Shown: positions 10,447 through 30,725, counted from the stretch's first letter. The stretch: DNA of 64,000 nucleotides from Chromatiales bacterium (GCA_028280505.1 JANQLO010000019.1:62001-126000); one strand, 5' to 3'. The notes: generated from the letters alone by a model not told the origin. A program made the numbers and translations.

Positions 10447-10823
10447 AAGCACTCCAGTCAAGATTTTCTGATCGAACAAGATGTGGCCGTAGATTTCACA
10501 TCGGCAACCCCAACCACTCGCGATGACCTGGACAAAAGTCGATTCGGGCCAAATTTTCCCCAATACAACGCATTCACGTATCCGAGCGACAGAAAATCAG
10601 CCCGTGCCAAATCATTTGAGCTTCAAATAAAAATTTCAATAAATCAATTAGTTAAATAAAATTTTAATAGCAGATTCAATAACTCGATTACGCAATATCG
10701 GCTGATGCCCGAAAAACCTTAATGCGAATCGTTGCTATTTCGTTTTCCCTTTGCTAGATTACGCCGCAAGCGTCGTAGAGAAAGTTTTTCCGTACTGAAG
10801 TTACATGAACGTAGATTTAATCG
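10424..10823. other. AT-rich promoter region of the 20 kb pilus/imelysin block
   Basis: These 400 bases hold no convincing gene. Around 10620-10690 the sequence is strongly AT-rich, unlike the coding DNA. A weak Fur-like site lies at 10724-10742 and the first gene of the block starts at 10824 or 10830. Confidence 0.55.
10724..10742. promoter_or_regulatory. Weak Fur-like site ahead of the 20 kb block
   Basis: The site gcgaatcgttgctatttcg shares GCGAAT, TT and TATT at the same spacing with the second hemP site (7749), but matches the classical Fur consensus at only about eight of 19 positions. It lies 80-100 bases upstream of the first gene. Confidence 0.4.
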
Positions 10824-11042
10824 ATGCCCATGGCCAAGAGCACAACCGAAAACAAGGAAATTCTTGAGAAGCTGCAACAGCTTTACCGAGAGATCTTTGC
10901 CCACGACGGTTACGGCGATCTGCGTGTCGAAATGCGCATCCTCCGCCGTGGGCAAAAAGAAGTGATCATCCATTGCGGCAAACAGTATCGCTATGTCGTG
11001 GATTATGAATCCAACGCACTGATTGCCGAACAATCGAGCTGA
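10824..11042 (+). CDS. Small protein, paralogue of the one that closes the block at 30324
   Basis: A 72-residue protein (ATG 10824; ATG 10830 is equally possible). The pattern ILEKLQQLYREIFAHDGYGD, then LRVEMRILRRGQKEVIIHCGKQYRYVV is shared almost position by position with the protein at 30324-30725 (helix, HEGYGD, RLLNR, GKEYRYQV). The predicted fold is one helix followed by three strands. No known family was recognised. Its place in front of the pilus-like genes, 83 bases behind a Fur-like site, suggests a regulatory or adaptor role for the block. Confidence 0.72.
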   Translation: MPMAKSTTENKEILEKLQQLYREIFAHDGYGDLRVEMRILRRGQKEVIIHCGKQYRYVVDYESNALIAEQSS

Positions 11043-11294
11043 GGGGAGCTATCGGTTCGACAAAAAATCCTGGTTTCATACCTCACCAGGTACAACCGAT
11101 GGCCAAGGTCGGCAATCGAGGCTCCCGGGCAGGGAAGCCACCTCTTTCAGACGACGGCGAGGGGCCGTGTCGAAGAATCGGTGCGATGTGCGCGGCGCGC
11201 ATGCACCAAAACTAGAAGACAGACACAAACCCCAGGCACATGGTCCCCCGCGGGCGGGGAGATGCGGCCGACAGATTGAAAGAGAGACATCTTG

Positions 11295-12347
11295 ATGAAC
11301 ATGAAATCTATCCTGAAGCACTTCGACCGTATCGAAGCGTCTTCTATCACCGATGCCAAAACCGCTAAACGCGTCGCCAAACTACAGGCCAAGCGTAAGC
11401 AGGGTGGCTTCACGCTGCTGGAACTCCTGGTCGTCGTCGCCATCCTGGCCGCAATCGCCGGTACCGCCACCATCGCACTGCAAGACACCGACGCACGTGC
11501 ATCGGCCGCCGCGCACGTGGCTATGATGGACGAACTCAACGAGGGTATTCGTACCTATCGGGTGTTGAACAAAAACACCTACCCGACCAACTTCGATTCC
11601 TTGATCGAGACCACGTCCAATGACACCTCCTTCACCGGTGCCGCACTCATCGACATCGCCGCACTCGAGGATCTACAGGCCGTTACGCTGACCGTGGACG
11701 CCGCCGAGCGTATGTCGGACATCGGCATCAACGGTTTGATGGTCGCACACAACGATGCTGGTTCAAACCCGGACGGCGACGGCGATTGCTCGGACTTTGC
11801 CGGCCTGATCGCCAGCCGGGGCAACGCGGTGGTTGCCGGCAACATCTTCCTGACACCGGCCGCCAACGGTTGCGGCTACCAGTGGCAGAACATCGACAGT
11901 GACGATACAACCGACGGTTTCCAGCTCAACGGCACCCCCAGCGTCATGATCTGGAACGGCGGCTATGAGCGCATCCTCGGCTTCGACGGTATCGCGATGG
12001 ACGCCCAGATGACCGCGGACGCAGACGGCAATTACACCACCTTCACCGCGGATGCCGACGATGACACGGCCGATCCGATCGTGCTGATGGCGGTCGGTCT
12101 CGGCCCGTCATCCAACCTGTTCAACGCCAATGAACTCGGTGGCCTGACCTCGGTGCCGGTTTACCGCCACGTATCCGAAACCGAGTACAACCGTTTCATC
12201 GCACTGTTCAATATCGGCACCTTCGTTACCGGCGGTATCACCTACACCCCGGCCGACCAGGTGACCCTGGTAACCATCATCGATGGTGCCGGCGACACCA
12301 AGGAAGAGGAATTGGGCGAGTGGGACGGCACGCGTAACACCATCTAA
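11295..12347 (+). CDS. Large pilin/pseudopilin with long leader (GspG-like)
   Basis: A 350-residue prepilin. ATG 11295 follows AGAGAG. The type IV prepilin signal is clear: GG at residues 37-38, then FTLLELLVVVAILAAIAG with Phe at +1 and Glu at +5, so a prepilin peptidase should cut after residue 38. The leader is unusually long (38 residues against 5-20). The mature protein of 312 residues is over twice the size of GspG and has Asp-rich loops such as DADGNYTTFTADADDD that may bind calcium. A terminator follows the gene, as expected for a major subunit that is made in excess. No prepilin peptidase gene lies in the window. Confidence 0.85.
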   Translation: MNMKSILKHFDRIEASSITDAKTAKRVAKLQAKRKQGGFTLLELLVVVAILAAIAGTATIALQDTDARASAAAHVAMMDELNEGIRTYRVLNKNTYPTNFDSLIETTSNDTSFTGAALIDIAALEDLQAVTLTVDAAERMSDIGINGLMVAHNDAGSNPDGDGDCSDFAGLIASRGNAVVAGNIFLTPAANGCGYQWQNIDSDDTTDGFQLNGTPSVMIWNGGYERILGFDGIAMDAQMTADADGNYTTFTADADDDTADPIVLMAVGLGPSSNLFNANELGGLTSVPVYRHVSETEYNRFIALFNIGTFVTGGITYTPADQVTLVTIIDGAGDTKEEELGEWDGTRNTI

Positions 12348-12767
12348 CCCGATGGTTGGCTGAACGCCATCGTGTACCAGGCCACAAGGACGTGGCCGAT
12401 GCGAAATACACGCAGGTTTTCGTGTGACTCCAATTGGCCGGCTGGTCCGCCAGCCGGCATTTTTTCGACGCTTGCGATCAGATCATCACGCGCCGTATCG
12501 CTACACGGTGATCTGATCGGAGCCTTCGAAAGGCAAGCAAAAACAGGCAAAAGACGTCAAGGGGACGATGAATGCCGACTGTCGAAACCACATCTTCGGC
12601 AGCATAAAACCGGGCTTTGCGGACAATACCGCAACCGTGTGAAGACCATTCCGGCAAACGGTTCCCGACAACGGGCACGCATCGGAATCACGTGTCTTCA
12701 TTCACGCCATGGTTTCGTACCCTCCCCTGCGCGTCCGGCGCCATACGAAAGTGCCAAGAGAAAACCC
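12348..12767. other. Gap between first pilin gene and the rest of the operon
   Basis: This 420-base stretch has no supported gene. The reading frame of the next pilin is open through it but has no credible start before 12768. It contains the strong terminator at 12437-12465, so most transcripts of the first pilin gene should end here. Confidence 0.6.
12437..12465 (+). terminator. Intra-operon Rho-independent terminator
   Basis: A perfect nine-base-pair stem (GCCGGCTGG with CCAGCCGGC) with a TCCG loop is followed by a run of six T. It lies 90 bases behind the first pilin gene and should lower expression of the downstream machinery relative to that pilin. Confidence 0.85.
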
Positions 12768-13712
12768 GTGAAGCGCGTAACAACCTTCCAACAACCCGAC
12801 AACGGCCGAGTGGGCGTTCGCACTAAAGCGATAGGCCCGCGCTCGCGGCATGCCGGTTATAGCCTGCTGGAGTTGCTGGTAGTGGTCAGTATTCTGGTAG
12901 CGGTTGCCCTCATCGCCACGGGTTCGATGGACGGTGTGGATCGCGCCGCACAAGCGAATATCGTTAGTGCCGAAATGCTGGAAATCGCCAAGGCGATCAA
13001 GCAATTCAAGGCGGATACCGGCTACTACCCGGGTCAAGGGCCGTTCGCACTGCTGGAAGACGTCAATGTGGGGGCTTATACATGCGCCAATGATGCAGCC
13101 GACTCGCCAGGTGCCGTCGATATCGATGATCCGTCGATCGTTTCGCGCGCATGGTTCGAATCACCTGCAAACCTGGTTCAACTGCTCGAGAGACCGATAC
13201 TCTGTACCGGCCATCCACTCGCATGGCTCGCCGACGACTGGGATCCGGTCACCCGCCGAGGGTGGCGCGGCCCGTATCTGCAAACCCTGGGCGAGGGCTT
13301 CGTATCCATCGGCGATGACACCAACCCCGACGAGGCCTACGAAACCGGTGATCCGGAAATCGTCGCGACTGCGCAAATCGATGATGTTCCGGGGATTGCC
13401 GACCCTTTCGAGCACCGTCCTGTAAATGGACTCATGGCCTGGAGTGCCACACCGATCGCGGACGGCGGTATGCAACGCAAGGTGGCGGGCCGTCCTTATC
13501 TTGTGTTTCTCAACGATTACGGTGCCGGCGGTGGGATCGTCACATCGCTCGAACACCCTCGCATCGTCAGCATGGGGCCGGATGGCCTGTACGCCGGTTG
13601 CTATGACGATAACGGTGACGGCGACTGTAACGACCCGGGGGATGGAGAAAACCCATGTCTGCCCAACATCGACGGCGTAGAAACCGACGACATCATTCTG
13701 TGCCTGGAGTAG
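12768..13712 (+). CDS. Large pilin-like protein (second)
   Basis: A 314-residue protein. GTG 12768 is chosen because AAGAG lies just upstream and gives a 30-residue leader; an ATG further upstream would give an implausible leader of 160 residues. The prepilin signal reads AG, then YSLLELLVVVSILVAVALI with Glu at +5; Tyr at +1 is less common than Phe. The mature part begins with the usual helix (AEMLEIAKAIKQFKADTGYYP), as in GspG/PilE proteins, and ends in a loop with DDNGDGDCNDPGDGEN that looks like a calcium site. It is probably a minor subunit of the fibre. Confidence 0.82.
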   Translation: MKRVTTFQQPDNGRVGVRTKAIGPRSRHAGYSLLELLVVVSILVAVALIATGSMDGVDRAAQANIVSAEMLEIAKAIKQFKADTGYYPGQGPFALLEDVNVGAYTCANDAADSPGAVDIDDPSIVSRAWFESPANLVQLLERPILCTGHPLAWLADDWDPVTRRGWRGPYLQTLGEGFVSIGDDTNPDEAYETGDPEIVATAQIDDVPGIADPFEHRPVNGLMAWSATPIADGGMQRKVAGRPYLVFLNDYGAGGGIVTSLEHPRIVSMGPDGLYAGCYDDNGDGDCNDPGDGENPCLPNIDGVETDDIILCLE

Positions 13713-13716
13713 AACG

Positions 13717-14223
13717 ATGAAATCATCCCGCTTCTCCAATCCACTCAGTCGCATACTGCTGGCGGCTGGCGTCGGTCTATCGCTTGCGATCCTCGCGATC
13801 ATCGTAGAAGGCGCGGCGATATCGAAGCGTCCCGATCAGACCCTGACCGTGACATTCAAACCGATCGATATCGATCGATTCGTCGCCGAACAACGCCCCA
13901 CAAGAGAAGGATCGACGTCGCTGATGCAACCCAGCCCGGTGATTTTCGAGGCCGGCATCAAACAGTACCCGCATAAACGAAAAGTCACTTACATGTATAC
14001 GGTGCTCGAGTTCTTTCCCATGGCACCCCGCCCCGAGGTCAACCACCGTATGTTCGTCACCACACCCGGTGGCCACATCATGCCGGTATATGTCGACGAC
14101 AGCATCGTCGACTCGATCAAACGTCGCCTGAAGGAAGACGGCAAGCGCGTGAGCTTCTACGGCTACCACATGTACAACTACTCGAAGGGCCCAGCCATTC
14201 TCGTGACCGGGTTCCGCGAATAG
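13717..14223 (+). CDS. Membrane-anchored protein of the pilus block, unknown function
   Basis: A 168-residue protein starting at ATG 13717, four bases after the preceding stop. One transmembrane segment spans residues 12-32, with the rest predicted outside in the periplasm. The soluble part contains PHKRKVTYMYTVLEFFP, VTTPGGHIMPVYVD and VSFYGYHMYNYSKGPAILVTGF, suggesting a small beta-rich domain. No family was recognised. It lies between two pilin-like genes and is probably a structural or assembly component of the same machine. Confidence 0.72.
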   Translation: MKSSRFSNPLSRILLAAGVGLSLAILAIIVEGAAISKRPDQTLTVTFKPIDIDRFVAEQRPTREGSTSLMQPSPVIFEAGIKQYPHKRKVTYMYTVLEFFPMAPRPEVNHRMFVTTPGGHIMPVYVDDSIVDSIKRRLKEDGKRVSFYGYHMYNYSKGPAILVTGFRE

Positions 14224-14233
14224 ACAGGCCATC

Positions 14234-15388
14234 ATGATCGCGGCGCGTACTTTATCGACGACACAGAACGGCATGACCTTGCTGGAACTGCTGCTGGTCG
14301 TGACGATTCTTTCCGCGGTCGCCTTCATGTCGTTGGCGACGGTTACCGATAACACCAGCCAGGTGCGTTACGACGATACGCGCAACCGTATCGAGGCAGT
14401 GAAGCTGGCGGTAATAGGCGACCCCAACCGGACAATTAACGGAGAACCGGAGGTGCGCGGTTTCGTTGCCGATATGGGACGACTACCAAACAATCTGCAG
14501 GAGTTGATCAACCGTGAATACTGCTCAAATCCCCAGTATCCCGACAGCGGTTCGTGCACAGCTGCGACGGAAACATGGACCAGCCTGCCTGCGTATGCCT
14601 ACGACGCCGCTACGGGTATCTGGTCCGGGTGGAATGGCCCTTACCTGGCAGCCTCACCGGATTCGGACTACGCGAAGTATCGAGACGGCTGGGGAAACGA
14701 CGACGGCAGTAACGACTTTGGATGGAATTTTGCCCTCAACGCGGATGCACTGGAGCTACAAAGCCTGGGTTTGGACAACGCCACTGGCGGCTCGGACTAC
14801 GAAGCAGATTATCCTCCAGCCGGTTACGAGACCGTCGTTTATCAAAACGACTACCGTACACTGATCACGGATTCCAAGACTCCAACGCAGAACAACGATG
14901 GGACTGGTGGCCTCTCCATTGATTTCGGTGCACCCGTTCCATGCTGGCGCTGTTCGGATGGCATTTCCGTTAACAGATCTACTTGTGAAAGTAGCGGTAA
15001 TAGTTGGAGTACCGACACCACCATCACCGACAACGCGACATGCATCGCGGCCCCGGGGCAATGGCAACCATCCGAATCGATTTGTATGCGGATCACCTAC
15101 CGCAGTAACGGTGCACTCAGCACTTACGTGTCGTCAGGCCTTACCGGTAACCACACTTTGACTTGGAACGGCACCGTGCAAACAGCACGCTTTACTTTCG
15201 AAGACACAACGACTCCATTCGATGAAGACACCTATCTACCAATGGGACAAATGGCGTACCGGGTTTTCGAATATGACACGGGCACAAACACCTGCACGCC
15301 CAATGAATATCCCAAAGGCTCCGATTGGCGCCTATTCACGCTGGTACCCAAAACCGCCATACAGCCACTCAAGTGGGCAGTCAACTGA
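14234..15388 (+). CDS. Large pilin-like protein (third)
   Basis: A 384-residue protein with a 13-residue leader and a clear class III signal: G at 13, then MTLLELLLVVTILSAVAF with Glu at +5. The mature N-terminal helix is followed by DDTRNRIEAVKLAVIGDP and a PNNLQELINREYC segment as in GspG-like proteins. The C-terminal 250 residues contain six or more cysteines and many Thr/Ser/Gly, giving a large head domain, possibly an adhesin or tip subunit. The stop overlaps the ATG of the PilM-like gene (ATGA). Confidence 0.82.
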   Translation: MIAARTLSTTQNGMTLLELLLVVTILSAVAFMSLATVTDNTSQVRYDDTRNRIEAVKLAVIGDPNRTINGEPEVRGFVADMGRLPNNLQELINREYCSNPQYPDSGSCTAATETWTSLPAYAYDAATGIWSGWNGPYLAASPDSDYAKYRDGWGNDDGSNDFGWNFALNADALELQSLGLDNATGGSDYEADYPPAGYETVVYQNDYRTLITDSKTPTQNNDGTGGLSIDFGAPVPCWRCSDGISVNRSTCESSGNSWSTDTTITDNATCIAAPGQWQPSESICMRITYRSNGALSTYVSSGLTGNHTLTWNGTVQTARFTFEDTTTPFDEDTYLPMGQMAYRVFEYDTGTNTCTPNEYPKGSDWRLFTLVPKTAIQPLKWAVN

Positions 15389-16455
15389 TGAAAAACCCCA
15401 TCACCATTCTCAACAACATCCAGCTCGGCAAACCGAACAACCTGTTGGTACTGCACCACGACGGGTTCGTTCTGGAAGGTGTGGTGGTACATGCCGGTTT
15501 AACGGGTCAAGAAATCCAGGCCAGTGGTTCTTCACGTGCGATCGACTGGGTCACCGCAGTCGGTGAAGTATTGGAACAAATAAAAACCGCGGGCATCAAA
15601 AAGCCGCCAAAAAAAGCGATTCTGGTCACGGCATCGGCGATGTCGGCACTGATCGACCTGCCCGTGAACCCCGAACGACCGAGGGCACCGGAGCAAATGC
15701 GCGAAATGGTGCGTTGGGAACTCGAGCCGCTGTTCGCCCAACAGCATGAGCGCTGGTGCATCGGTTCCTTATTGATGGGGCGCGGTTACCTGGAACAGGA
15801 AAAACGTGCGGAGGTCATGAGCGAGGTACTGGCACGCAATGCGGCTTCCAACAACCGCATGACGGTACGCTTCGGCGAGGTCGCGCAGGGCCTCGGTTTT
15901 GTCACGCGTACACATATCGACGAATGCCTGTCGTTGCAGGAACGTCTGATACAACTCGATGACGAAGCCTGTTGCGGTTGGGCGGCTCAAAAACTCCCGG
16001 AAGACTTCGAGATCGACGACGAGGCGCCACGCTACCCATGGCTGGCGACAGGCATCGGTGACAACCTACGCAAACTGTGGGTAAAGGCCTGCCAACGCCA
16101 TAAGCTCTTTTTGCAGGCGATCTATCCCTCTCTCGGCGTCGGCTTCGAGTCCTTGGATACGAGCGACAACCGTGAAGAACTTTACATCGACATACAGCAA
16201 GAGCAGTTCGCCGTTCTACGCGGCCTACCCGGCGCATTGCGCACCTACCGCGTCGAAGATGCACAAGACGGTGAAATAATCCCCGAACAGATCGCCGGAC
16301 TTTGTCATGAAGAGATGCGCCCGGATATCACACGCATCACGCTCAATGCCGCACAGGCACGCTTCGATGTCGTGGCGCCGATGTTGCAGCAGCGCATGGA
16401 ACGTCCGGTCGTTCCGCCGCCGGGCGCGGACGCGGGCGGCAAGGTGGCTGCATGA
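15388..16455 (+). CDS. PilM/GspL-like cytoplasmic assembly protein
   Basis: A 355-residue soluble protein starting at ATG 15388, overlapping the previous stop by one base. Its place directly before PilN- and PilO-like genes, its length, and opening strands such as NLLVLHHDGFVLEGVVV fit the actin-like PilM / cytoplasmic GspL / MshI role: a platform that links the assembly ATPase to the inner-membrane ring. The typical PilM nucleotide motifs are not obvious, so the assignment depends mainly on gene order. Two neighbouring cysteines (DDEACCGWAA) are unusual. Confidence 0.62.
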   Translation: MKNPITILNNIQLGKPNNLLVLHHDGFVLEGVVVHAGLTGQEIQASGSSRAIDWVTAVGEVLEQIKTAGIKKPPKKAILVTASAMSALIDLPVNPERPRAPEQMREMVRWELEPLFAQQHERWCIGSLLMGRGYLEQEKRAEVMSEVLARNAASNNRMTVRFGEVAQGLGFVTRTHIDECLSLQERLIQLDDEACCGWAAQKLPEDFEIDDEAPRYPWLATGIGDNLRKLWVKACQRHKLFLQAIYPSLGVGFESLDTSDNREELYIDIQQEQFAVLRGLPGALRTYRVEDAQDGEIIPEQIAGLCHEEMRPDITRITLNAAQARFDVVAPMLQQRMERPVVPPPGADAGGKVAA

Positions 16456-17833: not shown

Positions 17834-18919
17834 ATGAACGCCACCGATCGACTCAACCAGCTGCTGCATCAACTCATCGAGAAAGGCGCGTCCGACCTGC
17901 ACCTGACTTCGGGAGCGGCACCCTGTCTGCGGGTACACGGCCTGCTGCAACGACTGCAAGCCGAGACAGTCGATGCCGATCTGATCCGAACCATGCTGCA
18001 AAGCATCTGCAGCGAACACCAATGGCAGGAATTCCAGGATCGACACACCGTCGATATCGGTTACGGTACACCGGACGGCGAACGCTTCCGTATCAACGCT
18101 TATCACGAGCTTGGCCGTCCCACCATTGCGGCAAGGCACCTGGATCAACGGATGCTGTCTCTCGAGGAATTGCATCTGCCAACGGCGATCGGTGCTTTGT
18201 CCCAGTTCCGATCCGGCTTGGTGCTGGTGACCGGTGCGACCGGCAGCGGCAAGTCCACCACGCTGGCCGCGTTGATCGATCGCATCAATGCCAGCCGTGC
18301 CTGCCATATCCTGACCATCGAAGACCCGGTCGAATTCGTGCACCAGGCCAAACTCGGCCTGGTGCACCATCGTGAACTGCATACCGACGTGCCCAGCTTT
18401 GCCGAGGCCGTACGTGCCTCCTTGCGCGAAGACCCCGACGTCATACTGGTCGGCGAGATGCGCGATCTCGAGACCATGCGTGCGGCATTGACTGCAGCCG
18501 AAACCGGTCATCTCGTGTTTTCGACGCTACATACCGGCGAGGCGATCGGCTGCGTCGAACGTCTCATCGGCAGCTTCCCCGGTGACGAACAAGACGTCGC
18601 CCGCCATCGCATCGGCATGGCACTGCGCGCAGTCGTCGCCCAACACCTGATACCGGTCACCAAAGGCCGGGGCCGCGTACCCGCGGTCGAGATCCTGATC
18701 GTCAACCCTGCGGTCGCCAATATGATCGCCAATGGAAAGACACGCCAGATCTTTTCCGTCATGGAATCCGGTAGCAACGACGGTATGCAGACCCTGGATC
18801 AATCGTTGGCCGGGCTGGTCCGCGACCGTTTGCTCAGCGCCGAAGAAGCATTGCTGCATTGCCACGATCCCCAGGCCATCGATCGCCTGCTGAACCACGG
18901 CAACCGGAGGATAGGCTGA
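17834..18919 (+). CDS. PilT/PilU-like ATPase
   Basis: A 361-residue hexameric ATPase of the PilT/VirB11 type. It opens with GASDLHLTSGAAPCLRVHG, typical of PilT. Walker A is GATGSGKSTT near residue 133; the Asp box, a Walker B with REDPDVILVGEMRD, and a His box HLVFSTLHTGEA follow in order. It lacks the tetracysteine zinc element of assembly ATPases, so it resembles retraction motors. Classic type II secretion systems do not have such a motor, which argues that the machine is a dynamic pilus. The stop overlaps the start of the next ATPase gene. Confidence 0.88.
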   Translation: MNATDRLNQLLHQLIEKGASDLHLTSGAAPCLRVHGLLQRLQAETVDADLIRTMLQSICSEHQWQEFQDRHTVDIGYGTPDGERFRINAYHELGRPTIAARHLDQRMLSLEELHLPTAIGALSQFRSGLVLVTGATGSGKSTTLAALIDRINASRACHILTIEDPVEFVHQAKLGLVHHRELHTDVPSFAEAVRASLREDPDVILVGEMRDLETMRAALTAAETGHLVFSTLHTGEAIGCVERLIGSFPGDEQDVARHRIGMALRAVVAQHLIPVTKGRGRVPAVEILIVNPAVANMIANGKTRQIFSVMESGSNDGMQTLDQSLAGLVRDRLLSAEEALLHCHDPQAIDRLLNHGNRRIG

Positions 18920-20556: not shown

Positions 20557-21801
20557 GTGCCGACTTTCGCCTATGTCGCCCTGGATCAAAAAGGACGGGA
20601 ACATACCGGCCGGGTCGAGGCCACCAACGCCCGCGACGCCGCCACGGCGCTGCGTAATCAATCGATCTATGTCGTCTCGATCAAAGAAGGAGATACCTAC
20701 GACACACATATCTCGGGACTGGCGAACTGGCGCGACTTCCGCGAAACCTTGTCACCACGTCAGTACCTACCGGTGCGCGCACAAGATCTGGTGTTCCTGT
20801 TCCACCAGATCGCACTGATGCTGCGTTCCGGTCACACCGTGGTGCAGGCACTCGAAGCGAATCAACAGATGACCAGCAAACGCGCCTTGCGCAAAGCCTT
20901 GCGACACATGGGCGAGGATATCCAGAGGGGCGGCAGCTTCTCACGCGCGGTCGCCGCGCAAAAGTCACTGTTCCCCCCACAAGTCAACAAACTGCTGGAG
21001 GCCGGCGAGCAAAGCGGCGAGATCGACACCATCCTCGAGCGCCTGGCAGACGACCTGGAGCGTCGTGTCGACGTCAAGCGACAATTGGCCACTGCCCTGA
21101 CCTATCCCGGCATCGTGTTCACGATGGCCATCGGTGTATCGGCCGCACTAATCGGTTGGGTGATACCGCGCTTTGCCCATTTTCTCACCAGCCGTGACGT
21201 CACATTGCCGCCGATTACCCAGTTTCTGCTCGACGTGGCCGACTGGTTTCAGACTTGGGGCGGCATAACCGGAGCGATCGCGCTGACAACGGTCTTCGGC
21301 GTGCTGGCGGCATCGACGACCAAACGCGGCAAAAAGGTGATCGATCGTGCGGTATTGCATCTGCCGGTCGTCGGCAAGGTCATCATCGCGTCCGGTCTCG
21401 CTCAGGCAACCTGGACACTGGCGATGCAGCTACGCAGTGGTATATCGCTGCTACCCGGGCTGCGAATCACCAGCGACGTCACGAGCAATCGTGTACTGGC
21501 TGACGCGTTCGGCCGAGCAAGCGATGACATCCTGGCCGGGCAAGCTTTATCGACTGCACTGCAAAAAAGCGCAATCCCACCGTTGGTCGTGCATATGGCA
21601 GCAATCGGTGAGCGCAGCGGCGAACTTGACGGTGTTATGACCGCGCTCGGTGAGTTTTACCGTAAGGACCTGCAGGCGCGTGTGAAGATGCTCGCGGCCT
21701 GGGTCGAACCGGCCCTGATCATCATCGTTGGTGGCATGGTCGCCGTCGTTTATCTCGCCTTTTTTCAGGCCGCTCTCCAAGTCTCCAGCGGCGGGATGTA
21801 A
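20557..21801 (+). CDS. GspF/PilC-like inner-membrane platform protein
   Basis: A 414-residue polytopic protein with GTG 20557 behind GGAGG. It has the two-domain GspF architecture. The N-terminal opening reads PTFAYVALDQKGREHTGRV, each repeat has a GEQSGEIDTILERLADDLE-like motif (near residues 149 and 350), and three transmembrane segments are present. It forms the platform under the ATPase that moves pilin subunits out of the membrane. The second repeat has GERSGELDGVMTALGEFY, matching the family. It follows the GspE-like ATPase as in nearly all such operons. Confidence 0.92.
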   Translation: MPTFAYVALDQKGREHTGRVEATNARDAATALRNQSIYVVSIKEGDTYDTHISGLANWRDFRETLSPRQYLPVRAQDLVFLFHQIALMLRSGHTVVQALEANQQMTSKRALRKALRHMGEDIQRGGSFSRAVAAQKSLFPPQVNKLLEAGEQSGEIDTILERLADDLERRVDVKRQLATALTYPGIVFTMAIGVSAALIGWVIPRFAHFLTSRDVTLPPITQFLLDVADWFQTWGGITGAIALTTVFGVLAASTTKRGKKVIDRAVLHLPVVGKVIIASGLAQATWTLAMQLRSGISLLPGLRITSDVTSNRVLADAFGRASDDILAGQALSTALQKSAIPPLVVHMAAIGERSGELDGVMTALGEFYRKDLQARVKMLAAWVEPALIIIVGGMVAVVYLAFFQAALQVSSGGM

Positions 21802-21813
21802 AGGAACAGGAAA

Positions 21814-22467
21814 ATGAACAAACACCTGATGAGCGCGATGCCAGCGACATTGGCCATGCTGCTCAGCACCGGACTACCGGCCGAACCGTCACTCGATGAA
21901 GGTTCCCTGCTGAAAAGCATCGGTGACATCAACCGTTACTACCAACGCGTACAGGAAAAGCTGGGCGGCGACGTCGACTCGGCAACCGACCAATCGGCTG
22001 TCTCGCCGGACGAATCGGATCCCGTGACACGCAGAGTCATCCTGCAACCCGGCCAGCAAAACACCGCACCAAACTGGCTCGACCGCGTCGACTCCGGATT
22101 CCGTTCACTCACACTCGATGGCAAACACGAGGGATATCGCCAGGGCAGGCGCAATCCATTCGCACCGACCCAGTTGATTCTCGCCGCAATCGAACGCGGT
22201 GGCAGCAGTGCCGCAAATCTGGCGTTACAACCGGTACAGCAGGCAACACCTATCCCACGTATGCATCTGCGCGGACTGATCAACGACGGCGCGGTACAGG
22301 CTGCGCTGCTCGAGATCGAAAACGCCGGCGTCTACATCGTCCGCGAGGGCGACACGGTCGGCCTCTACGAGACGGGCTCCAATGCGGTAGTACGGATACG
22401 CGAAATCAACCGTCTCAACCTGGTGGTCGAAGCCGGTTCGCTGGGCCAATTGTTCATCGTGCGCTGA
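21814..22467 (+). CDS. PilP/GspC-like periplasmic protein
   Basis: A 217-residue exported protein: a signal-like N-terminus (residues 1-23), a low-complexity linker, then GYRQGRRNPFAPTQLI near residue 110, the RNPF motif typical of PilP, followed by a small beta-sandwich (MHLRGLINDGAVQAALLEIE, GVYIVREGDTVGLYE). This is the HR-type domain of PilP/GspC that contacts the secretin and PilO. There is no lipobox, unlike PilP, so it may stay anchored by its N-terminal helix or be soluble. Located directly before the secretin gene as expected. Confidence 0.75.
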   Translation: MNKHLMSAMPATLAMLLSTGLPAEPSLDEGSLLKSIGDINRYYQRVQEKLGGDVDSATDQSAVSPDESDPVTRRVILQPGQQNTAPNWLDRVDSGFRSLTLDGKHEGYRQGRRNPFAPTQLILAAIERGGSSAANLALQPVQQATPIPRMHLRGLINDGAVQAALLEIENAGVYIVREGDTVGLYETGSNAVVRIREINRLNLVVEAGSLGQLFIVR

Positions 22468-22484: not shown

Positions 22485-24833
22485 ATGTACAGAGCCATTT
22501 TGATCGTCGCACTCGTCCTCGGAGCCGCGCTGCTTTTTCATTTCCCCGCGCAGGCCGTCGACGGGCGCGATATCTATGCCCACTCGGATCCAAAAAAGAT
22601 CGGCGAAGGACGCATCGAGGAAATCGAATTCAAGGATACGCGGGTGCAGGACGCGATTCGGGTCATCTCGGAACTGACCGGCGTGAACATCGTCGCAACC
22701 ACCGAGGCCGGTAACCGAACCTTCACCCTGTTCCTGCGCGACATACATGTGGCCGACGCGATCGACAGCATCTCGCGTGTTGCCGGGATCTGGTACAGAC
22801 ACAATACCAAAACCAACGTCTACACCGTGCTGACCACCGAGGAGTATTTCAAGGACATTATCGTGTTCCGCGAGGAGCGCACCCAGGTATTCACCCTGAA
22901 GTACCAGAACGTGGTCAAGATCGCACGCACCATAGAGGCCATGTTCGGCGATGACCGCGTCGAGGCCGATCTACAGACCGACTTCGACGATGATTTGGAA
23001 GTACCGGGCGCCACACTCGATTCCGGTGGGAACTCGACCTCGTCGAGTGGCAACTCGCGCCGCAATCGCCGTAACAATCGTCGCTTCGACCGCACGTCAC
23101 GGCGTGTCGGCGGCAATTCGAACAGAAGTGGTACCGATGACGACCTCAAGGAAGAAATCGGTGAAATGACCACTGAACAGATTGCGCTACTCGAAAGTGC
23201 CCAGGCAAAACTCGGGAGCCAACCGTTGCAGGTCTCCGAGACCACTCTGGCCAGCGTGCGTAAACGCAGCAACGTACCGATCTTCGTGTCGGTAAACCGC
23301 GAACACAATCTTTTGTTCGTACGTACCGCCGACGAAGAAGCGATGAAAGAGGTCCAACGCATCGTGCGCGAATCCGATCGTCCTACCCCCCAGGTGCTAC
23401 TGGAAATGAAAGTGATGTCGGTACAGCTCGATGACGGCTTCCGCTCGGCCTTCGATTTCAGCTACACCGGCGGCGGCAACAGTGCCGGACCACCCGATGG
23501 CCAAGCCCCCAACCCTCTGAGTCCGTCCACGGATATCGGTCCCAAAACGATACTGGGTCTCGTCGGTGCCGGGCTCAAGGAAAACAGCAGCCTGGTGTTC
23601 CAGCTCATGAACGACCATGTTCGTGCACGCCTGCAACTGCTCGAGAACGAAGGTCGTATCAACATCCTGGCGACACCCGTACTGCTCGCGTCGAACAATC
23701 GCCCGGCCAAGATCTTCATCGGTGAACAAACCGTGTTGACCACCGGCTTCTCACAGCAGTTCACCGGCACGGGCGGCGGCAACAATACCTTCGTCGGCAC
23801 CCCGGTACCCGAAACCGAGGTCGTCGAGGTCGGTAACACCCTCACCATACTGCCGAGTATCAATGCCGATCGGACGGTGCTGATGCGACTGCTACAGGAG
23901 GCCTCTACGGTCAACCCCAACGGCGGTCAAATCCCGATCGTCGCCAACGGCAGCGTGACCAACGTGCCCATTGACACGGTCGACACCTCGACCATCGAAG
24001 GTACGGCAATGGCCAAAGACGGCCTGACCGTCATGATCGGCGGAATGATCACCCAATCCCGATCCTTCATCGAGAAAAAAGTACCCTTGCTCGGCGACAT
24101 CCCCGTGATGGGTGCGTTGTTTCGGGATACCGAGAAAACGGACGACAAGCAGGAACTGATCCTGTTGATTACGCCCCATGTATTCACCACACCGGAAGAA
24201 GCGGAGGCGATCTCACGCCAACGGGTCGATAAGATCACGTCGCACCCGAATTCGATCGACATATACCTGGACGAACTCGACCGTACGCGTGCCAAGAGTG
24301 CCCAGGGCAATAACCAGGCCAGTGCGGTGGCCCCTGTCACGCCCACAGACGATGACAGCAAGCTACAGCAGGCCTACTTGGATCTCACGCGCTTCGCTGC
24401 CGGCGCGATGCACCAACCCGCTACGATAGAGCAACGTGGCTCATTGCGTGAGACACCGTTGAAATCGCGGGCGCCTTTACGCCTGCTGCCGGACACCAGT
24501 GTGATCGCGAAACCGGTACAAAGCTGGCAAGACGGCATACTGTACGTAACGACGGTCCGGTTGACCAACCATGCCGCCGTTCCCAAGCAACTGCATGAGA
24601 GCATGCTGATGGGTGATTGGCTGGCCGCCACATTGGAGACCACCCATGTCGCGCCCTCCCGATCCACTTATGTCTATCTGATCTCCGATACGCCTTTCGA
24701 CCAGGCCAGTCGGCTTGTCGCTCGCAGCGATTCGACGCAAGACCCGTCGATTTTGATACAGCTACCGGAAGAGAAGCCCCCGACGGACAAATTCGGCGAC
24801 GAAGAGAACTATGACTTCCTGTTCGGGCAGTAA
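22485..24833 (+). CDS. Secretin (PilQ/MshL/GspD type) with an extra TraK-like C-terminal domain
   Basis: A 782-residue outer-membrane channel protein with a signal peptide (about residues 1-24). After the N-terminal secretin domains (IEEIEFKDTRVQDAIRVISE, then a NolW-like YQNVVKIARTIEAMFGD) comes a low-complexity Ser/Arg/Asn linker (about 185-225). The secretin core follows, with VLLEMKVMSVQLDDGF, NILATPVLLASNNRPAKIF and GLTVMIGGMI. Beyond it, residues 625-775 form a separate domain with LTRFAAGAMHQP, WQDGILYVTTVRLTNHA and MGDWLAATLETTHV, ending in TYVYLISDTPF. This matches my memory of the TIGR03749/DUF3438 TraK-like family of integrative conjugative elements. A fusion like this is not known to me. 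Confidence 0.88.
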   Translation: MYRAILIVALVLGAALLFHFPAQAVDGRDIYAHSDPKKIGEGRIEEIEFKDTRVQDAIRVISELTGVNIVATTEAGNRTFTLFLRDIHVADAIDSISRVAGIWYRHNTKTNVYTVLTTEEYFKDIIVFREERTQVFTLKYQNVVKIARTIEAMFGDDRVEADLQTDFDDDLEVPGATLDSGGNSTSSSGNSRRNRRNNRRFDRTSRRVGGNSNRSGTDDDLKEEIGEMTTEQIALLESAQAKLGSQPLQVSETTLASVRKRSNVPIFVSVNREHNLLFVRTADEEAMKEVQRIVRESDRPTPQVLLEMKVMSVQLDDGFRSAFDFSYTGGGNSAGPPDGQAPNPLSPSTDIGPKTILGLVGAGLKENSSLVFQLMNDHVRARLQLLENEGRINILATPVLLASNNRPAKIFIGEQTVLTTGFSQQFTGTGGGNNTFVGTPVPETEVVEVGNTLTILPSINADRTVLMRLLQEASTVNPNGGQIPIVANGSVTNVPIDTVDTSTIEGTAMAKDGLTVMIGGMITQSRSFIEKKVPLLGDIPVMGALFRDTEKTDDKQELILLITPHVFTTPEEAEAISRQRVDKITSHPNSIDIYLDELDRTRAKSAQGNNQASAVAPVTPTDDDSKLQQAYLDLTRFAAGAMHQPATIEQRGSLRETPLKSRAPLRLLPDTSVIAKPVQSWQDGILYVTTVRLTNHAAVPKQLHESMLMGDWLAATLETTHVAPSRSTYVYLISDTPFDQASRLVARSDSTQDPSILIQLPEEKPPTDKFGDEENYDFLFGQ

Positions 24834-24853
24834 CGGCATACGAGATTGAGACA

Positions 24854-26107
24854 TTGCAACAGGCGCCACAAAAAACGGCCTGGCCGGCGATCGCTGCATT
24901 GCTGCTGTCGTTGACGGCCGGATGCAGCCATACGGCAACGAGCGGCACGGGCATGCGCCCTATAGATTCGGAGTCACTCAGGCCCTACGTTTTCAACCGC
25001 GTGCGCAAAACACAAACCAAGACGGTAGATCACGCCGTTGGTGCGGAAACCCGTCGCGCCGCATTGTCCGCCCTGACGATCGCTCGACGCACGACACATT
25101 CATCCACTGTCACGACTTATCCGTCGTTGGCGCGCCACCCCCACGTATTCAACGATCCTCGACACGCAGGAAAAACACATCACACAGCGGCAACGAGAAC
25201 TGACATGAGGGCACCCATTAACGAAGACCCGAGCACGACAACGGCAATCGCACAGGAACTGACCATCACGACCGGCTACCGGCGCGACGATTTCGATTGG
25301 AACATCGCCGCTCCCGGCGGCACGCCCAACATCTTGTCGGAACTGACCTGGAGTGACCTGGATACCTGGACCATCAGCGGTCAACTCGATCTACCGATCA
25401 AGGACCGATGGCGTTCACGCGTCAAACTGGACCTCGGTACGACACTGAACGGCGATAATCAGGACTCGGACTATCTCGGCAACCATCGTACGCTCGAGTT
25501 CTCGCGTTCGAACAACAATGTCGAGAAAGGCACCCTGATCGATTTCTCCGTCGGCATCGGCCGCACGTCGACATTGCTGGCGACCGATCGGGCGACATTC
25601 AGCTTGACTCCGTGGCTCGGTTATTCAACGCATTTGCAAAACCTGCGCATGAACGACGGCAGGCAGACGGTCTCCGAACCGCCCATGTCGTTACCGCTCG
25701 GTCCCTTCGACGGTCTGGACAGCAGCTACGACGCCTTCTGGCACGGCCCCTGGGTCGGTCTACAGGGCGACCTGGCACTCGATGACCGTCATACCTTGTC
25801 CGGTCAGATCGAGTACCACTGGGCCGACTATGACGCCGAAGCCGAGTGGAATCTGCGCACCGATCTGGCACAGCCGGTCAGCTTCGAACACGATGCCGAC
25901 GGCCACGGCATAAACGCGCTGTTGAGTTGGCGCTACCGAGCACCCAAAGGCCCGACGTGGCAACTGAGTTTGGGCCACCAGGACTGGCAGGCCGGGCCCG
26001 GTGACGTCACCGTCCATACCGCCGGCGGCGACCGCCTGAATACCCGACTTAACGAAGTCAACTGGCGCAGCACCAAGATCGATCTCGGGGTGAACTATGC
26101 CTTTTGA
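24854..26107 (+). CDS. Lipoprotein with C-terminal outer-membrane beta-barrel
   Basis: A 417-residue protein starting at TTG 24854, 20 bases after the secretin. The signal ends in a lipobox LTAGC (Cys24), predicting an N-terminal lipid anchor. Residues 25-140 are low complexity (Thr/His/Arg). The remainder consists of alternating strands and loops (FDWNIAAP, LSELTWSDLDTWTISGQ, KLDLGTTLNG, WLGYSTHLQ, LSGQIEYHWADYD) and ends in a terminal Phe, as in outer-membrane barrels. The family is not recognised, but it resembles proteins annotated as Protochlamydia-type outer-membrane proteins. It probably supports the secretin or fibre passage. Confidence 0.7.
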   Translation: MQQAPQKTAWPAIAALLLSLTAGCSHTATSGTGMRPIDSESLRPYVFNRVRKTQTKTVDHAVGAETRRAALSALTIARRTTHSSTVTTYPSLARHPHVFNDPRHAGKTHHTAATRTDMRAPINEDPSTTTAIAQELTITTGYRRDDFDWNIAAPGGTPNILSELTWSDLDTWTISGQLDLPIKDRWRSRVKLDLGTTLNGDNQDSDYLGNHRTLEFSRSNNNVEKGTLIDFSVGIGRTSTLLATDRATFSLTPWLGYSTHLQNLRMNDGRQTVSEPPMSLPLGPFDGLDSSYDAFWHGPWVGLQGDLALDDRHTLSGQIEYHWADYDAEAEWNLRTDLAQPVSFEHDADGHGINALLSWRYRAPKGPTWQLSLGHQDWQAGPGDVTVHTAGGDRLNTRLNEVNWRSTKIDLGVNYAF

Positions 26108-26194
26108 ATCCTACTTCACACCGGTTCCCGTGGGGGGTAACGGTGGTTTTCATACCACTGAGGTCAAACGACCTCCAACACGAGGAAAACCTTG

Positions 26195-27766
26195 ATGAGT
26201 ACGACAAGCGAACACTTGGAAAAAATCGCCCGATCGAGAAAACGCAGGGAACGCTCAATACCGTTGAAATTCAGCCTGCCCGTACTGGCGATAGCACTCG
26301 CTGCGCTGGGGTTCACGTCATACAAAGCTTTTGTCACGCCTTGGGCGGCCTATGGCGACGACGACATGAGCTACCTACAGCGTGTCGACCCGCGCTCGCT
26401 GTCCGGCGGCGACCTCACCCACTACCACTTCGGACCGCTGGCCTACGAGCAGGAGGCGCCGAACCTCGCATGGGCCTGGTCGAAACTCTTTGACGACGGC
26501 GACGGTGTGTTCGAACGCATCGTGACGCCGGCGTTGCCGAGCGACTATCGTCACGATGCCGATGGTGTCGGCCCCATTTATAACAACCATGCCTGCGAGG
26601 CCTGCCATGTCGCAGACGGTCGGGCGCAACCACAACTGGAAAATCCGCTCGCACCACAGGAAGGCCTGCTGATAAGGCTGTCGGTGCCCGGACAAGGCGC
26701 ACACGGCGGCCCCAATCCACATCCGGTTTACGGAGGCCAATTCGGCGACCGCGGCCTGCCGGGTAAGGGTGTCGACTTCGGCGATACCGATTACCTTAAT
26801 CTTTATCAGGGAGAAGGGGCCGTAAAACCCGAGGGTCGGGTGGTGATCCGCTACGAGGAGATCACTGGCCAGTACGGAGACGGCACGCCATATACCCTTA
26901 CCAAACCCGCCTACGAACTGGTCGATCTGAACTACGGACCACTCGGTGACGACACCATGACCTCACCACGTGTCGCACCCGCCGTGCATGGCCAGGGATT
27001 ACTCGAGGCAATCCCGGAGGCCGCGATCCTGACCAATGCCGACCCGGAAGACAAAAACAAAGATGGGATCTCCGGAAAACCACAGTACGTGTGGGATCCC
27101 GAAACCCAAAGCAAACGGCTCGGAAGATTCGGCTGGAAAATGGAGACCGCCAGCGTCGCCCATCAATCGATGGACGCCGCCGTTAATGATATGGGTGTGA
27201 CCAACCCCATGTTCCGCCAACAAACTTGCACCAATGCACAGGTCGATTGCACCAAATCACTGCATGGTGGCACACCGGCCAACCCCGAGTTCACGCCCGA
27301 CCAGATGGAACAGGTCGTCGTCTACCTGCAACTGCTGGGCGTACCCGGCCGCCGCGGTGTGCGTGAAGAGAAGGTACTGCACGGTGAACGGATGTTTCGC
27401 GAGGCGGGCTGCAACAGTTGTCATGTCGAGACCTTCGAAACCGCCGGACACGAGATCGAACGCCTGAACGGCCAAACCATTCACCCCTATACCGATCTGT
27501 TGCTGCACGACATGGGCGAAGGCCTGGCCGACAACAGGCCGAGTTACGACGCCAACGGCCGGGAGTGGCGCACTGCACCGCTCTGGGGGGTCGGTTTGGT
27601 ACCGACCGTGAACGGTCACTCGCGTTATCTGCACGACGGCCGTGCACGTAGCCTAGAAGAGGCCATCCTCTGGCATGGCGGCGAAGCCACCGGTGCCCAA
27701 GCCAAGTTCGTCGCAATGGACAAGGCCGACCGCGAAGCACTGTTGTTCTTCCTCGAATCGATGTAA
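26195..27766 (+). CDS. Di-haem oxidoreductase (DUF1111 / thiol oxidoreductase type)
   Basis: A 523-residue c-type cytochrome with ATG 26195 behind CGAGGAAAA. An N-terminal transmembrane anchor spans residues 28-50. Two haem-binding motifs CEACH (near 134) and CNSCH (near 406) are present, as are the family segments PRVAPAVHGQGLLEAIPE and EWRTAPLWGVGLV followed by HSRYLHDGRARSLEEAILWHGGEA. Members are periplasmic di-haem proteins related to cytochrome c peroxidases; they are often encoded with imelysin and DUF1513 proteins in iron-regulated loci. The electron partner and substrate are not established. Confidence 0.88.
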   Translation: MSTTSEHLEKIARSRKRRERSIPLKFSLPVLAIALAALGFTSYKAFVTPWAAYGDDDMSYLQRVDPRSLSGGDLTHYHFGPLAYEQEAPNLAWAWSKLFDDGDGVFERIVTPALPSDYRHDADGVGPIYNNHACEACHVADGRAQPQLENPLAPQEGLLIRLSVPGQGAHGGPNPHPVYGGQFGDRGLPGKGVDFGDTDYLNLYQGEGAVKPEGRVVIRYEEITGQYGDGTPYTLTKPAYELVDLNYGPLGDDTMTSPRVAPAVHGQGLLEAIPEAAILTNADPEDKNKDGISGKPQYVWDPETQSKRLGRFGWKMETASVAHQSMDAAVNDMGVTNPMFRQQTCTNAQVDCTKSLHGGTPANPEFTPDQMEQVVVYLQLLGVPGRRGVREEKVLHGERMFREAGCNSCHVETFETAGHEIERLNGQTIHPYTDLLLHDMGEGLADNRPSYDANGREWRTAPLWGVGLVPTVNGHSRYLHDGRARSLEEAILWHGGEATGAQAKFVAMDKADREALLFFLESM

Positions 27767-27833
27767 CAAGTCCGCGCGGAACATCACGCCATGTTCCGCG
27801 CAAACGATCCAAGCGCAAAAGGAAATTCGAATC

Positions 27834-28139: not shown

Positions 28140-28157
28140 ATCAGGCCGTCATCGATC

Positions 28158-29195
28158 ATGTTTAAAATCCTATCCCTGATCGGCGTAATCGGCTACACGC
28201 TGCTGATCGCCGGTTGTTCGCAAGAACCCGCTGTCGACCTGCAACCGGCATCGCCACAAGAGTTCGTCACGGCCGCACTGAAACAGATCGCGGTACCCGG
28301 CTTTGAAAAACTCGCACAACGCAGTGCGGCGTTCCAACAATCCGTCGAGGCATTGTGTACGACGCCGGGTGATTCACAATTGGCGGCTGCGCGGGACAGC
28401 TGGCGTGGGCTGAGTGCAAGCTGGCGGTCACAACGACCGCTGATGTTCGGGCCGGCGCGTGATATGAACGTGCGCCGCAGTATCGATCACTGGCCACCGA
28501 ATGACGTGGTCGCACACGCCGCGATCCAGCCCGGTGCCGAAATCTATACGCGTGAAGAACGTTCGGCACGTGGTTTCGCCGCGGCAGAATTCTTATTGTT
28601 CGGCGATACACGTTATCCGGTTGGCGTTGCGCAATGGCACGAACCTGGGCGTTGTACACACATGCGCGACATCAATGCCGAGATCGCCCGATTAAGCACC
28701 GAGATACTGCGCCGCTGGAACCGAGACTTTGCCGACATGATGATCGAAGGCGACCCGTCGGCCGCCGCCAGCCTGATCATTGCCGAGACGCTCAACACCA
28801 CGGAGGCGATACTGTGGCAACGCCTCGGTGTGCCGACCAATTTCTTCCGTGGGAATCCGAAACCGGAGCAGCTCGAGGCCTGGCGCAGCGGTGAATCACT
28901 GGCCGGCATCAAGGCAAGTCTGCGAACGATCGAGCAATTGATCGGCGGTACACACGGCCAGGCGGGTATTGCGTCACTGCTGATTGCGACCGAGCCTGAC
29001 AAGGCGACATCGCTGATAGAGGCATCGCGTTTGGCATTGGCTACCGCCGATTCTATTCCGGCACCACTACGAAACGCCTTGGGAAACGGCGAAACCGAGG
29101 ACTTGTTCAATGCCGTCCAGGATCTGAAAAACGAGTTGCTGGATACCGCCGCACTGCTTGGCCTTTCGATTCAATTCGAATCGGATGGAGACTAG
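28158..29195 (+). CDS. Imelysin-family lipoprotein
   Basis: A 345-residue lipoprotein with lipobox LIAGC (Cys20). The body is helical and follows the imelysin (M75-like) plan: WRGLSASWRSQRPLMFGPA, NVRRSIDHWP, RGFAAAEFLLFGD and a C-terminal LKNELLDTAALLGLSIQFES. Imelysins are iron-regulated outer-surface or periplasmic proteins. The GxHxxE motif proposed as a metal or active site reads GFAAAE here: the His is replaced by Ala. It is therefore unlikely to act as a metallopeptidase, and a role in iron binding or transfer is more plausible. Confidence 0.87.
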   Translation: MFKILSLIGVIGYTLLIAGCSQEPAVDLQPASPQEFVTAALKQIAVPGFEKLAQRSAAFQQSVEALCTTPGDSQLAAARDSWRGLSASWRSQRPLMFGPARDMNVRRSIDHWPPNDVVAHAAIQPGAEIYTREERSARGFAAAEFLLFGDTRYPVGVAQWHEPGRCTHMRDINAEIARLSTEILRRWNRDFADMMIEGDPSAAASLIIAETLNTTEAILWQRLGVPTNFFRGNPKPEQLEAWRSGESLAGIKASLRTIEQLIGGTHGQAGIASLLIATEPDKATSLIEASRLALATADSIPAPLRNALGNGETEDLFNAVQDLKNELLDTAALLGLSIQFESDGD

Positions 29196-29199
29196 CCCG

Positions 29200-30324
29200 G
29201 TGTCATCCATAGACCATAATCGCCGCCACCTGTTAAAGGCACTTGCAGCGGCCGGACTGATGCCCGGCATGACGATCGGCGCAAACACCCCGCGTCCGTC
29301 GCTGCTGGTATCCGCCTACTACCATGTTCATGCCGGCAAACTCGACAATCGCTTATGTTGGACCGACCCCGCGACCGGTGAACTGCGCACGATAAATACC
29401 GGCTTCCGCGGCCATGGCCTATACCCTCATCCGGTCAAACCGTCACGCCTGGTTCTTTTTGCACGCCGCCCCGGGCGACGACTGATCGAGATCGATCTTC
29501 GCAACGCCAACGTCGTACGGCAGGTCGAGGCCGGCAGGAACCGGCATTTCTACGGCCACGGCGTGTTCACGGGCGACGGACGATACCTGTATACGACCGA
29601 AAACGACTTTGAACGCGGCCGGGGAATGATCGTTGTACGCGATGGCGACACGCTGGCGGTCGTCAACGAGTTCCCGAGCGAGGGAATCGGCCCGCATGAC
29701 ATTCGAATGCTATCGGACGATCAAACGCTCGTCATCGCCAATGGCGGCATCCTCACCCATCCCGATCGACCGAGGCGCAAGTTGAACCTCGACGATATGC
29801 AGCCCAACCTGGCCTATCTCGATCGCCAAAGCGGCCAACTGTTGGAACAACACCACCTGTCCGATCATCAACTCAGCATCCGACATCTGGCAGTAACGCA
29901 AGACGACCAGGTAATCGCCGTACAGCAATACGAGGGTAGTCGTAAACGTCTGCCACCCTTGGTGATGCTGCACCGGCCCGGCCAGGCCATACGCACCGCT
30001 CTGGCGGACGATGCGACACAACGCCGAATGGACTGGTACACCGCCAGTGTGGCGGCAGACAGTCATACATCGACGGCACTCGTGACAAGCCCTCGAGGCA
30101 ATCTGGTGACGCTATGGGATATCGATCGTGACCGCCTCATCCGCAGTTTCGACATACGTAAACCCTATGGCGCCGCACTGGCTCCGAACAGCAGCCACTA
30201 TGCGATCAGTTGTGCAGACGGCGCCCTGTATAGCATGGCAATGGACGGCAGCAAGCTGCATATGTTGAAAACACCGGGCGACGGCGCCTGGGACAATCAT
30301 ATGATATGGACGGATTTAACTTGA
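29200..30324 (+). CDS. DUF1513 Tat-exported protein (beta-propeller)
   Basis: A 374-residue protein. GTG 29200 has GGAG nine bases upstream; ATG 29185 would overlap the imelysin stop. The N-terminus carries a twin-arginine signal (RRHLLKALAAAG). The body has repeated strand motifs (GHGLYPHPVKPSRLVLFARR, HFYGHGVFTGDGRYLYTTEN, GIGPHDIRMLSDDQTLVIANGG) consistent with the DUF1513 propeller-like family. DUF1513 proteins accompany imelysin and di-haem oxidoreductase in iron-regulated loci of Pseudomonas and relatives. Export in folded form hints at a cofactor. The precise role is unknown. Confidence 0.85.
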   Translation: MSSIDHNRRHLLKALAAAGLMPGMTIGANTPRPSLLVSAYYHVHAGKLDNRLCWTDPATGELRTINTGFRGHGLYPHPVKPSRLVLFARRPGRRLIEIDLRNANVVRQVEAGRNRHFYGHGVFTGDGRYLYTTENDFERGRGMIVVRDGDTLAVVNEFPSEGIGPHDIRMLSDDQTLVIANGGILTHPDRPRRKLNLDDMQPNLAYLDRQSGQLLEQHHLSDHQLSIRHLAVTQDDQVIAVQQYEGSRKRLPPLVMLHRPGQAIRTALADDATQRRMDWYTASVAADSHTSTALVTSPRGNLVTLWDIDRDRLIRSFDIRKPYGAALAPNSSHYAISCADGALYSMAMDGSKLHMLKTPGDGAWDNHMIWTDLT

Positions 30325-30725
30325 TGAATGAACACAAAGGTGCCGCGACAGACGAATCACTGGCCTTTTTGAACAAATTCGTCGAACTGTTCGAAGAAAT
30401 CATCCAGCATGAGGGTTATGGCGATATCAGCGTGAGTGTACGACTCCTTAATCGAAACACGCGCCTGATCGTACTGGGCAGTGGCAAAGAGTATCGATAT
30501 CAGGTTCAACAACCGCTCGGTCGCCAGGATTGCACAGGCAAACCTCGCTTCAGGATCAGCCAGAACAAAGCCGCTACCCAACGTCCTTGCCAGGGCCCGT
30601 TCGATCGCCGCCACGGAAAGGATCGACGCAAGGAGGAACGGCGTAAGAACCGGGAACCACGTAATTTCCGCCTGGAACGCCGGCTGGGTGGCGATCGCCG
30701 GCGCCGGGATCGCCGCGGACGATGA
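30324..30725 (+). CDS. Small protein with Arg-rich tail, paralogue of the block's first gene
   Basis: A 133-residue protein whose ATG overlaps the stop of the DUF1513 gene (TGATG). Residues 15-65 match the protein at 10824-11042 nearly throughout: LNKFVELFEEIIQHEGYGD, SVRLLNRNTRLIVLGSGKEYRYQV. The added C-terminal 60 residues are extremely Arg-rich (RRHGKDRRKEERRK, RRLGGDRRRRDRRGR), likely to bind nucleic acid or other polyanions. The two paralogues bracket a 20 kb collinear gene block. No family was recognised. Confidence 0.75.
   Translation: MNEHKGAATDESLAFLNKFVELFEEIIQHEGYGDISVSVRLLNRNTRLIVLGSGKEYRYQVQQPLGRQDCTGKPRFRISQNKAATQRPCQGPFDRRHGKDRRKEERRKNREPRNFRLERRLGGDRRRRDRRGR

Follow-up and report, generated by a model that had tools for sequence, protein, structure and literature searches.

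A probably Fur-controlled type IV filament machine linked to imelysin and di-haem genes in a Chromatiales bacterium

We analysed a window of 64,000 nt from a Chromatiales bacterium (GCA_028280505.1, JANQLO010000019.1:62001-126000; all coordinates are window positions on one strand) and found in it a block of 19 genes (10824-30725), every one on the plus strand, that holds a complete type IV filament set: three prepilins, PilT-like and GspE-like ATPases, a platform protein and a secretin. Downstream on the same strand, the machine genes are followed by genes for a di-haem oxidoreductase (DHOR), a small lipoprotein, an imelysin and a DUF1513 protein (Table 1). The linkage of this machine to iron genes is well supported by comparison of genomes. 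Our tentative but plausible reading is that the block encodes a type IV filament machine, probably Fur-repressed, which belongs to a lineage of its own, has spread horizontally and is used for iron acquisition.

A profile of the PilM-like protein served to search for the machine, which was found in 1 other of 112 relatives and in 5 of 369 class, 7 of 210 order and 2 of 398 phylum genomes (own genome counted in the last three); the machine is therefore rare. The close set of copies comprises the window, G314, G040, G439 and G542, together with short contigs of G543, G434 and G549, and the distant set G120, G227, G187 and G897. Imelysin genes lay near the machine in each of the five close copies whose flanking sequence sufficed, in differing arrangements. 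The copy of G314, a member of another family, matches the window in gene order between parA and parB, with Pom and the lipoprotein not detected, and FecI/FecR-type regulators and PepSY stand beside it; in G439 a secretin, two imelysins and DUF1513 follow one another on one strand. DHOR and imelysin genes lie 7-10 kb downstream of the machine in G542, and G040 carries an imelysin gene with those for an FTR1 permease and an FMN-binding protein (FMN_bind), then DHOR and a second imelysin; in both genomes the imelysin genes are set apart from the machine, on the opposite strand. Both G040 imelysins and the single imelysin of G314 are located at the machine. The chance product of the linkage over these four genomes, a rough figure that assumes random gene placement, was 2.4e-7; leaving out G314, which does not count as an independent copy, gave 2.4e-5. 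DUF1513 was likewise present in 5 of 7 machine carriers as against 32 of 204 genomes of the order overall (p 0.001).

That a pilus operon and an imelysin operon came to lie together by accident in one genome is very improbable, since the neighbourhood comparison that the sequence-only reading had asked for contradicts it: pilus homologues recur with imelysin in four other genomes (G314, G439, G040 and G542), and the other family's copy has the same gene order. What can be said for an accident is that contig C37 of the window's own genome, unlike the sampled relatives, shows a type II secretion system (T2SS) beside a canonical imelysin operon. Canonical imelysin operons of the order are mostly without adjacent pilus genes, which argues that the imelysin link is specific to this machine.

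All machine-linked imelysins carry GxxxxE and none GxHxxE; GxxxxE marks the PA4372/IPPA class (motif classes from PMC3143127), and the block's protein, with its Peptidase_M75 domain and GxxxxE, belongs to the imelysin family of this type. The block shares imelysin, di-haem enzyme, DUF1513 and iron regulation with the EfeUOB-like imelysin system (PMC3143127) but differs from it in having only a GxxxxE imelysin and no GxHxxE one and in being joined to a filament machine, the canonical operon being on C37. On that contig (L010, 3271-14455) the imelysin-DHOR-imelysin-DUF1513 operon abuts gspD-gspE-gspF on the other strand. A general association of imelysin with T2SS was considered and rejected, as the sampled relatives' canonical operons are not so placed. 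One exception among canonical operons is contig C520 of G543 (L069), where GspF-like and pilin-like genes come after a second imelysin-DUF1513 cluster, all in one orientation. Among the papers searched, we found no publication linking imelysin to pilus or T2SS machinery.

The small lipoprotein was found in five genomes among the 204 of the order, every one a machine carrier (p 7e-9), and its gene is upstream of parA in G040, G439, G542 and G543. In the window it stands between DHOR and imelysin, so that one of the machine's parts is set among the iron genes. The sequence-only reading had grouped it with the imelysin genes. Its identification as a secretin pilotin was not supported, its helical model (predicted local distance difference test, pLDDT, 83) having no PDB match at E <= 0.001; such a role is at most a possibility.

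We then consider regulation. The weak Fur-like site noticed earlier before the first gene is present, and Fur-like boxes recur at the matching place in G314, G040, G439, G542, G543, G549 and G120, making eight copies with the window. Scores to the 19-bp consensus AATGATAATCATTATCATT were 13 in the window, 14 in G314, 15 in G040, 13 in G439, 15 in G542, 16 in G543, 14 in G549 and 16 in G120. The boxes lie between -73 and -117 relative to the start region, over the -35 wherever a -10 is evident, and their combined p was 1.5e-11 over 11 loci, three without a box included, with a consensus register picked after the other standard register had been tried first (combined p 5.7e-7). A predicted box conserved over the promoter in eight copies is what membership of a Fur regulon would entail; the promoter of parA-pilinA is probably Fur-repressed, and the suggested iron responsiveness gains support from it.

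The machine itself belongs to the type IV filament (TFF) superfamily by its Pfam content, with prepilins, an assembly AAA+ ATPase, an inner-membrane platform and a secretin in one locus. Its proteins fell short of the NCBIfam cut-offs (score/cut-off, in bits) for T2SS (GspE 471/630, GspF 283/424, GspD 183/351), for the type IVa pilus (T4aP; PilB 461/676, PilQ 128/284) and for MSHA (MshL secretin 135/250), while the same genome's other machines pass theirs (T2SS GspEs 703 and 660, PilB 862). Judged by these scores, the machine is a type IV filament system that falls outside each named family tested (T2SS, T4aP, MSHA). MSH has been placed in the TFF superfamily with a mandatory gene set that includes MshM (PMC6668835); no MshM was found in the block, which has no third AAA protein, both ATPases being of T2SSE/PilT types. 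The machine could be among the 101 'generic' systems listed in the same work. In a tree of GspE-like ATPases that did not include MSHA, Tad or type IVb pilus sequences, those of the close set form one clade (100/98) and those of the close and distant sets together another (100/100), apart from the genome's own two T2SS GspEs, its PilB and a fourth ATPase.

Likenesses to known systems are partial. With T4aP (PilB/PilT/PilC/PilMNOPQ) the block shares prepilins, assembly and PilT-family ATPases, platform, a PilM/N/O/P-like order and secretin, but no PilA/FimT/PilX/PilY-type genes were recognised in it and the genome has a separate, proper PilB. Like the MSHA pilus (PMC6668835), it has an MshEN-bearing ATPase, PilMNOP-like genes and a locus without prepilin peptidase, whereas its secretin ends in DUF3438 and it is linked to iron genes. 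GspE/F/D-like parts and GspG-like prepilins recall type II secretion; the block differs in its PilT-family ATPase, and two proper T2SS GspEs are encoded elsewhere in the genome. Legionella PilA2 in iron assimilation (PMC13170364) is likewise a type IV pilin linked to low-iron growth, but a different pilin, with an effect independent of PilT and PilD, and the abstract mentions no imelysin link. Two domain observations stand apart: a 33-residue stretch of the PilM-like protein (15388-16455) resembles the cyclic di-GMP-binding MshEN domain of PilF/MshE (E 0.005), and the C-terminal DUF3438/TIGR03749 domain of the secretin (22485-24833) is otherwise known from integrating conjugative elements.

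These comparisons bear on a rather unlikely alternative, a type II-like machine that exports the neighbouring imelysin and DUF1513 protein (perhaps also Pom) to the surface under iron starvation, the prepilins forming a short pseudopilus. T2SS substrates are often encoded near their machine, and lipoboxes are present on the imelysin and the small protein. The only specific best matches of the prepilins, weak ones, are to GspG, and ATPase, platform and secretin all reach slightly better scores with T2SS models than with T4aP models. Yet the PilT/PilU-family ATPase (TIGR01420), above its cut-off, is no T2SS component; the gene order is of PilM/N/O/P type and not GspL/M/C; the imelysin genes of G040 and G542 lie apart on the opposite strand; and DHOR, with its N-terminal membrane anchor, would not be a simple export substrate. 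The PilT-like protein favours a dynamic fibre, with retraction putative, and the GspG-like prepilins are compatible with export.

By the measure of recA, G314 is farther from the window genome (76% DNA identity) than G040 (79%) and G439 (78%), yet its PilM-like protein is far closer (76% identity versus 45-46%). The block was probably transferred between families. No relatives were found among the plasmid and viral contigs searched. Every copy with its 5' end covered begins with parA and a prepilin, parA being upstream of the first pilin in ten other copies, and Pom also follows the secretin in the distant G187 and G897. In G120 (L023:5714-11914) a protein of about 2066 aa with TSP3 repeats and an OmpA domain is divergent from parA, with the Fur-like box between, and in G542 (L051:4147-6882) a second small prepilin set with a GspE-like fragment lies beside parB, adjoining the main copy.

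Another explanation that we think unlikely is an adhesion or biofilm pilus merely induced by iron starvation, with imelysin genes as neighbours through a common Fur regulon and a shared island and no common mechanism. Since the window and the G314 locus are iron islands, any Fur gene there would gain iron neighbours, and parA persists in distant copies that lack imelysin, as does the Fur-like box in G120. Such a pilus sits poorly with a linkage kept in five copies of different arrangement, with the interleaving of the machine-specific lipoprotein in the window, and with the close translational spacing from secretin to parB.

Several points weigh against the iron-acquisition reading itself. Imelysin was not found near the distant copies (G120, G227, G187 and G897), so a machine of this type need not work on iron, and in G549 the machine is present with imelysin not detected. 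The PilT-like ATPase was not detected in two distant copies, and in the window its AIRNLIRE-like motif has diverged (AVANMIA). Iron binding by the pilins is putative and speculative. The window's Fur-like box is weak when taken alone (13/19, p about 0.1), and the window scan gave no Fur-like site before pilinB or DHOR; iron control of the later genes would therefore need read-through. The hairpin at 12437-12458 is the strongest terminator-like hairpin in the block. In the G314 copy GspE, DHOR and parB are frameshifted and a transposase gene separates pilinA from pilinB, so this copy may be in decay or may carry errors of sequencing.

Strand and gene content were as first described, and Pfam matches (N_methyl, T2SSE in two proteins, T2SSF, Secretin, Pom, DHOR, Peptidase_M75 and DUF1513) confirm most of the names, among them prepilins, ATPases, GspF-like platform, secretin and barrel. 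The PilM, PilN, PilO and PilP names come from gene order and topology only, because Pfam and NCBIfam gave no match for the first three and PilP stays below threshold (E 0.011). The prepilin signal (N_methyl) is found in three proteins, that of pilinC below the Pfam cut-off. PilinA, which we infer to be the major subunit, has 53-63% identity across 7 copies; its structure model (pLDDT 38) was too low for a fold search. The paralogy of first and last genes was borne out by tblastn cross-matches and alignment, parB being a longer form with an Arg-rich tail that the first gene of G120 also bears. The small gaps that had been described hold from pilinB to parB (12810-30725; all <= 87 bp, with many overlaps) but not for genes 1-2 (252 bp) or 2-3 (about 450 bp, with the hairpin). 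One continuous transcript is not supported, given the terminator-like hairpin after pilinA; comparable hairpins follow pilinA in G549 and G187. An Rfam search gave no matches.

Table 1. Coordinates of the block, its regulatory elements and flanking iron genes
Feature	Position	Strand	Evidence or remark
DUF2325 and two FeoA-domain genes	8357..10423	+	directly upstream of block; DUF2325 and FeoA also near the G314 copy
Fur-like box AATGCGAATCGTTGCTATT	10721..10739	+	13/19 to AATGATAATCATTATCATT; overlaps -35 TTGCTA 10732-10737; -10 TAGATT 10755-10760
parA	10824..11042	+	72-aa conserved small protein; no Pfam match; first gene in every copy
pilinA, probable major prepilin	11295..12347	+	N_methyl 6e-8; N-terminus and C-terminal IDGAGDTKEEELGEWDG invariant
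Terminator-like hairpin with T tract after pilinA	12437..12458	+	9 pairs, 8 G-C
pilinB prepilin, GTG start uncertain	12810..13712	+	N_methyl 6e-5; weak GspG match
mem168, membrane-anchored/exported, conserved, family unassigned	13717..14223	+	31-61% identity where found, including distant G120
pilinC prepilin with CWRC motif	14234..15388	+	prepilin signal above NCBIfam domain cut-off, below Pfam's; conserved
PilM-like, short MshEN-like stretch	15388..16455	+	no family match; profile match to PilF/MshE N-domains
PilN-like, single transmembrane segment	16452..17165	+	position and sequence; no family match
PilO-like, single transmembrane segment	17165..17830	+	position and sequence; no family match
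PilT/PilU-family ATPase, Walker motifs intact	17834..18919	+	TIGR01420 410 bits, cut-off 319
Assembly ATPase, GspE/MshE-like, with MshEN domain	18919..20553	+	T2SSE 1e-113, MshEN 2e-13; below GspE and PilB cut-offs
GspF/PilC-like platform	20557..21801	+	T2SSF 3.5e-55
PilP/GspC-like	21814..22467	+	PilP E 0.011, below cut-off
Secretin with C-terminal DUF3438 (TIGR03749-like) domain	22485..24833	+	Secretin 1.4e-37, DUF3438 1.5e-12
Pom-family outer-membrane barrel, probable lipoprotein	24854..26107	+	Pom 2.5e-63
DHOR, di-haem oxidoreductase, N-terminal membrane anchor, two CxxCH	26195..27766	+	DHOR 9e-97; motifs
100-aa lipoprotein, machine-linked; lipobox C19, conserved C43 and C99	27834..28139	+	restricted to machine carriers
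Imelysin lipoprotein, GxxxxE (PA4372/IPPA) type	28158..29195	+	Peptidase_M75 1e-37; motif GFAAAE
DUF1513 beta-propeller, Tat-like signal	29185..30324	+	DUF1513 3.5e-96
parB, parA paralogue with Arg-rich tail	30321..30725	+	tblastn cross-matches and alignment
FbpC-like ABC ATPase	31256..32320	-	Fur-like box at 32376

The surroundings form an iron-uptake island: HemS/ChuX-like, ferric-type binding protein, FbpB-like permease, DUF2325 and two FeoA genes precede the block, and an FbpC-like ATPase follows it, then a TonB receptor, FecCD permease and AraC regulator. Fur-like sites lie in this island at 2671, 3678, 32376 and 41722. The stretch 39668-46633 encodes a TonB receptor, FecCD permease, ABC ATPase and AraC regulator and has Fur-like sites close to 41722 and 45581; it is probably a siderophore uptake cluster.

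If the block does serve iron acquisition, low iron would cause Fur to leave and switch on parA-pilinA; pilinA would be made in excess, the hairpin lying behind it, and the rest of the machine would be supplied by read-through or an internal promoter. Assembly of the filament through the secretin would be the work of the GspE-like ATPase, and its PilT-like counterpart could conceivably pull the filament back. More speculatively, iron in the form of ferric particles, ferric chelates or haem might reach the envelope on the filament or its tip; there the membrane-anchored di-haem enzyme would alter the redox state of the iron, and the imelysin lipoprotein would pass it on to inner-membrane permeases, FbpABC here and FTR1 in G040. 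A dedicated, Fur-repressed and retractable iron-harvesting filament, bringing iron (mineral particles, ferric chelates, haem) via the secretin to the periplasmic di-haem enzyme and the imelysin lipoprotein much as competence pili do with DNA, is a further proposal that we consider unlikely.

Taken together, these results suggest that iron starvation may be the specific trigger for a surface fibre or exporter in some bacteria. A conserved filament machine that is probably under Fur control and is linked to imelysin and di-haem genes makes a direct genetic test possible. If the reading is true, iron acquisition would be added to the tasks of type IV filaments (motility, adhesion, secretion and DNA uptake), and the machine would offer a candidate outer-membrane passage for imelysin systems.

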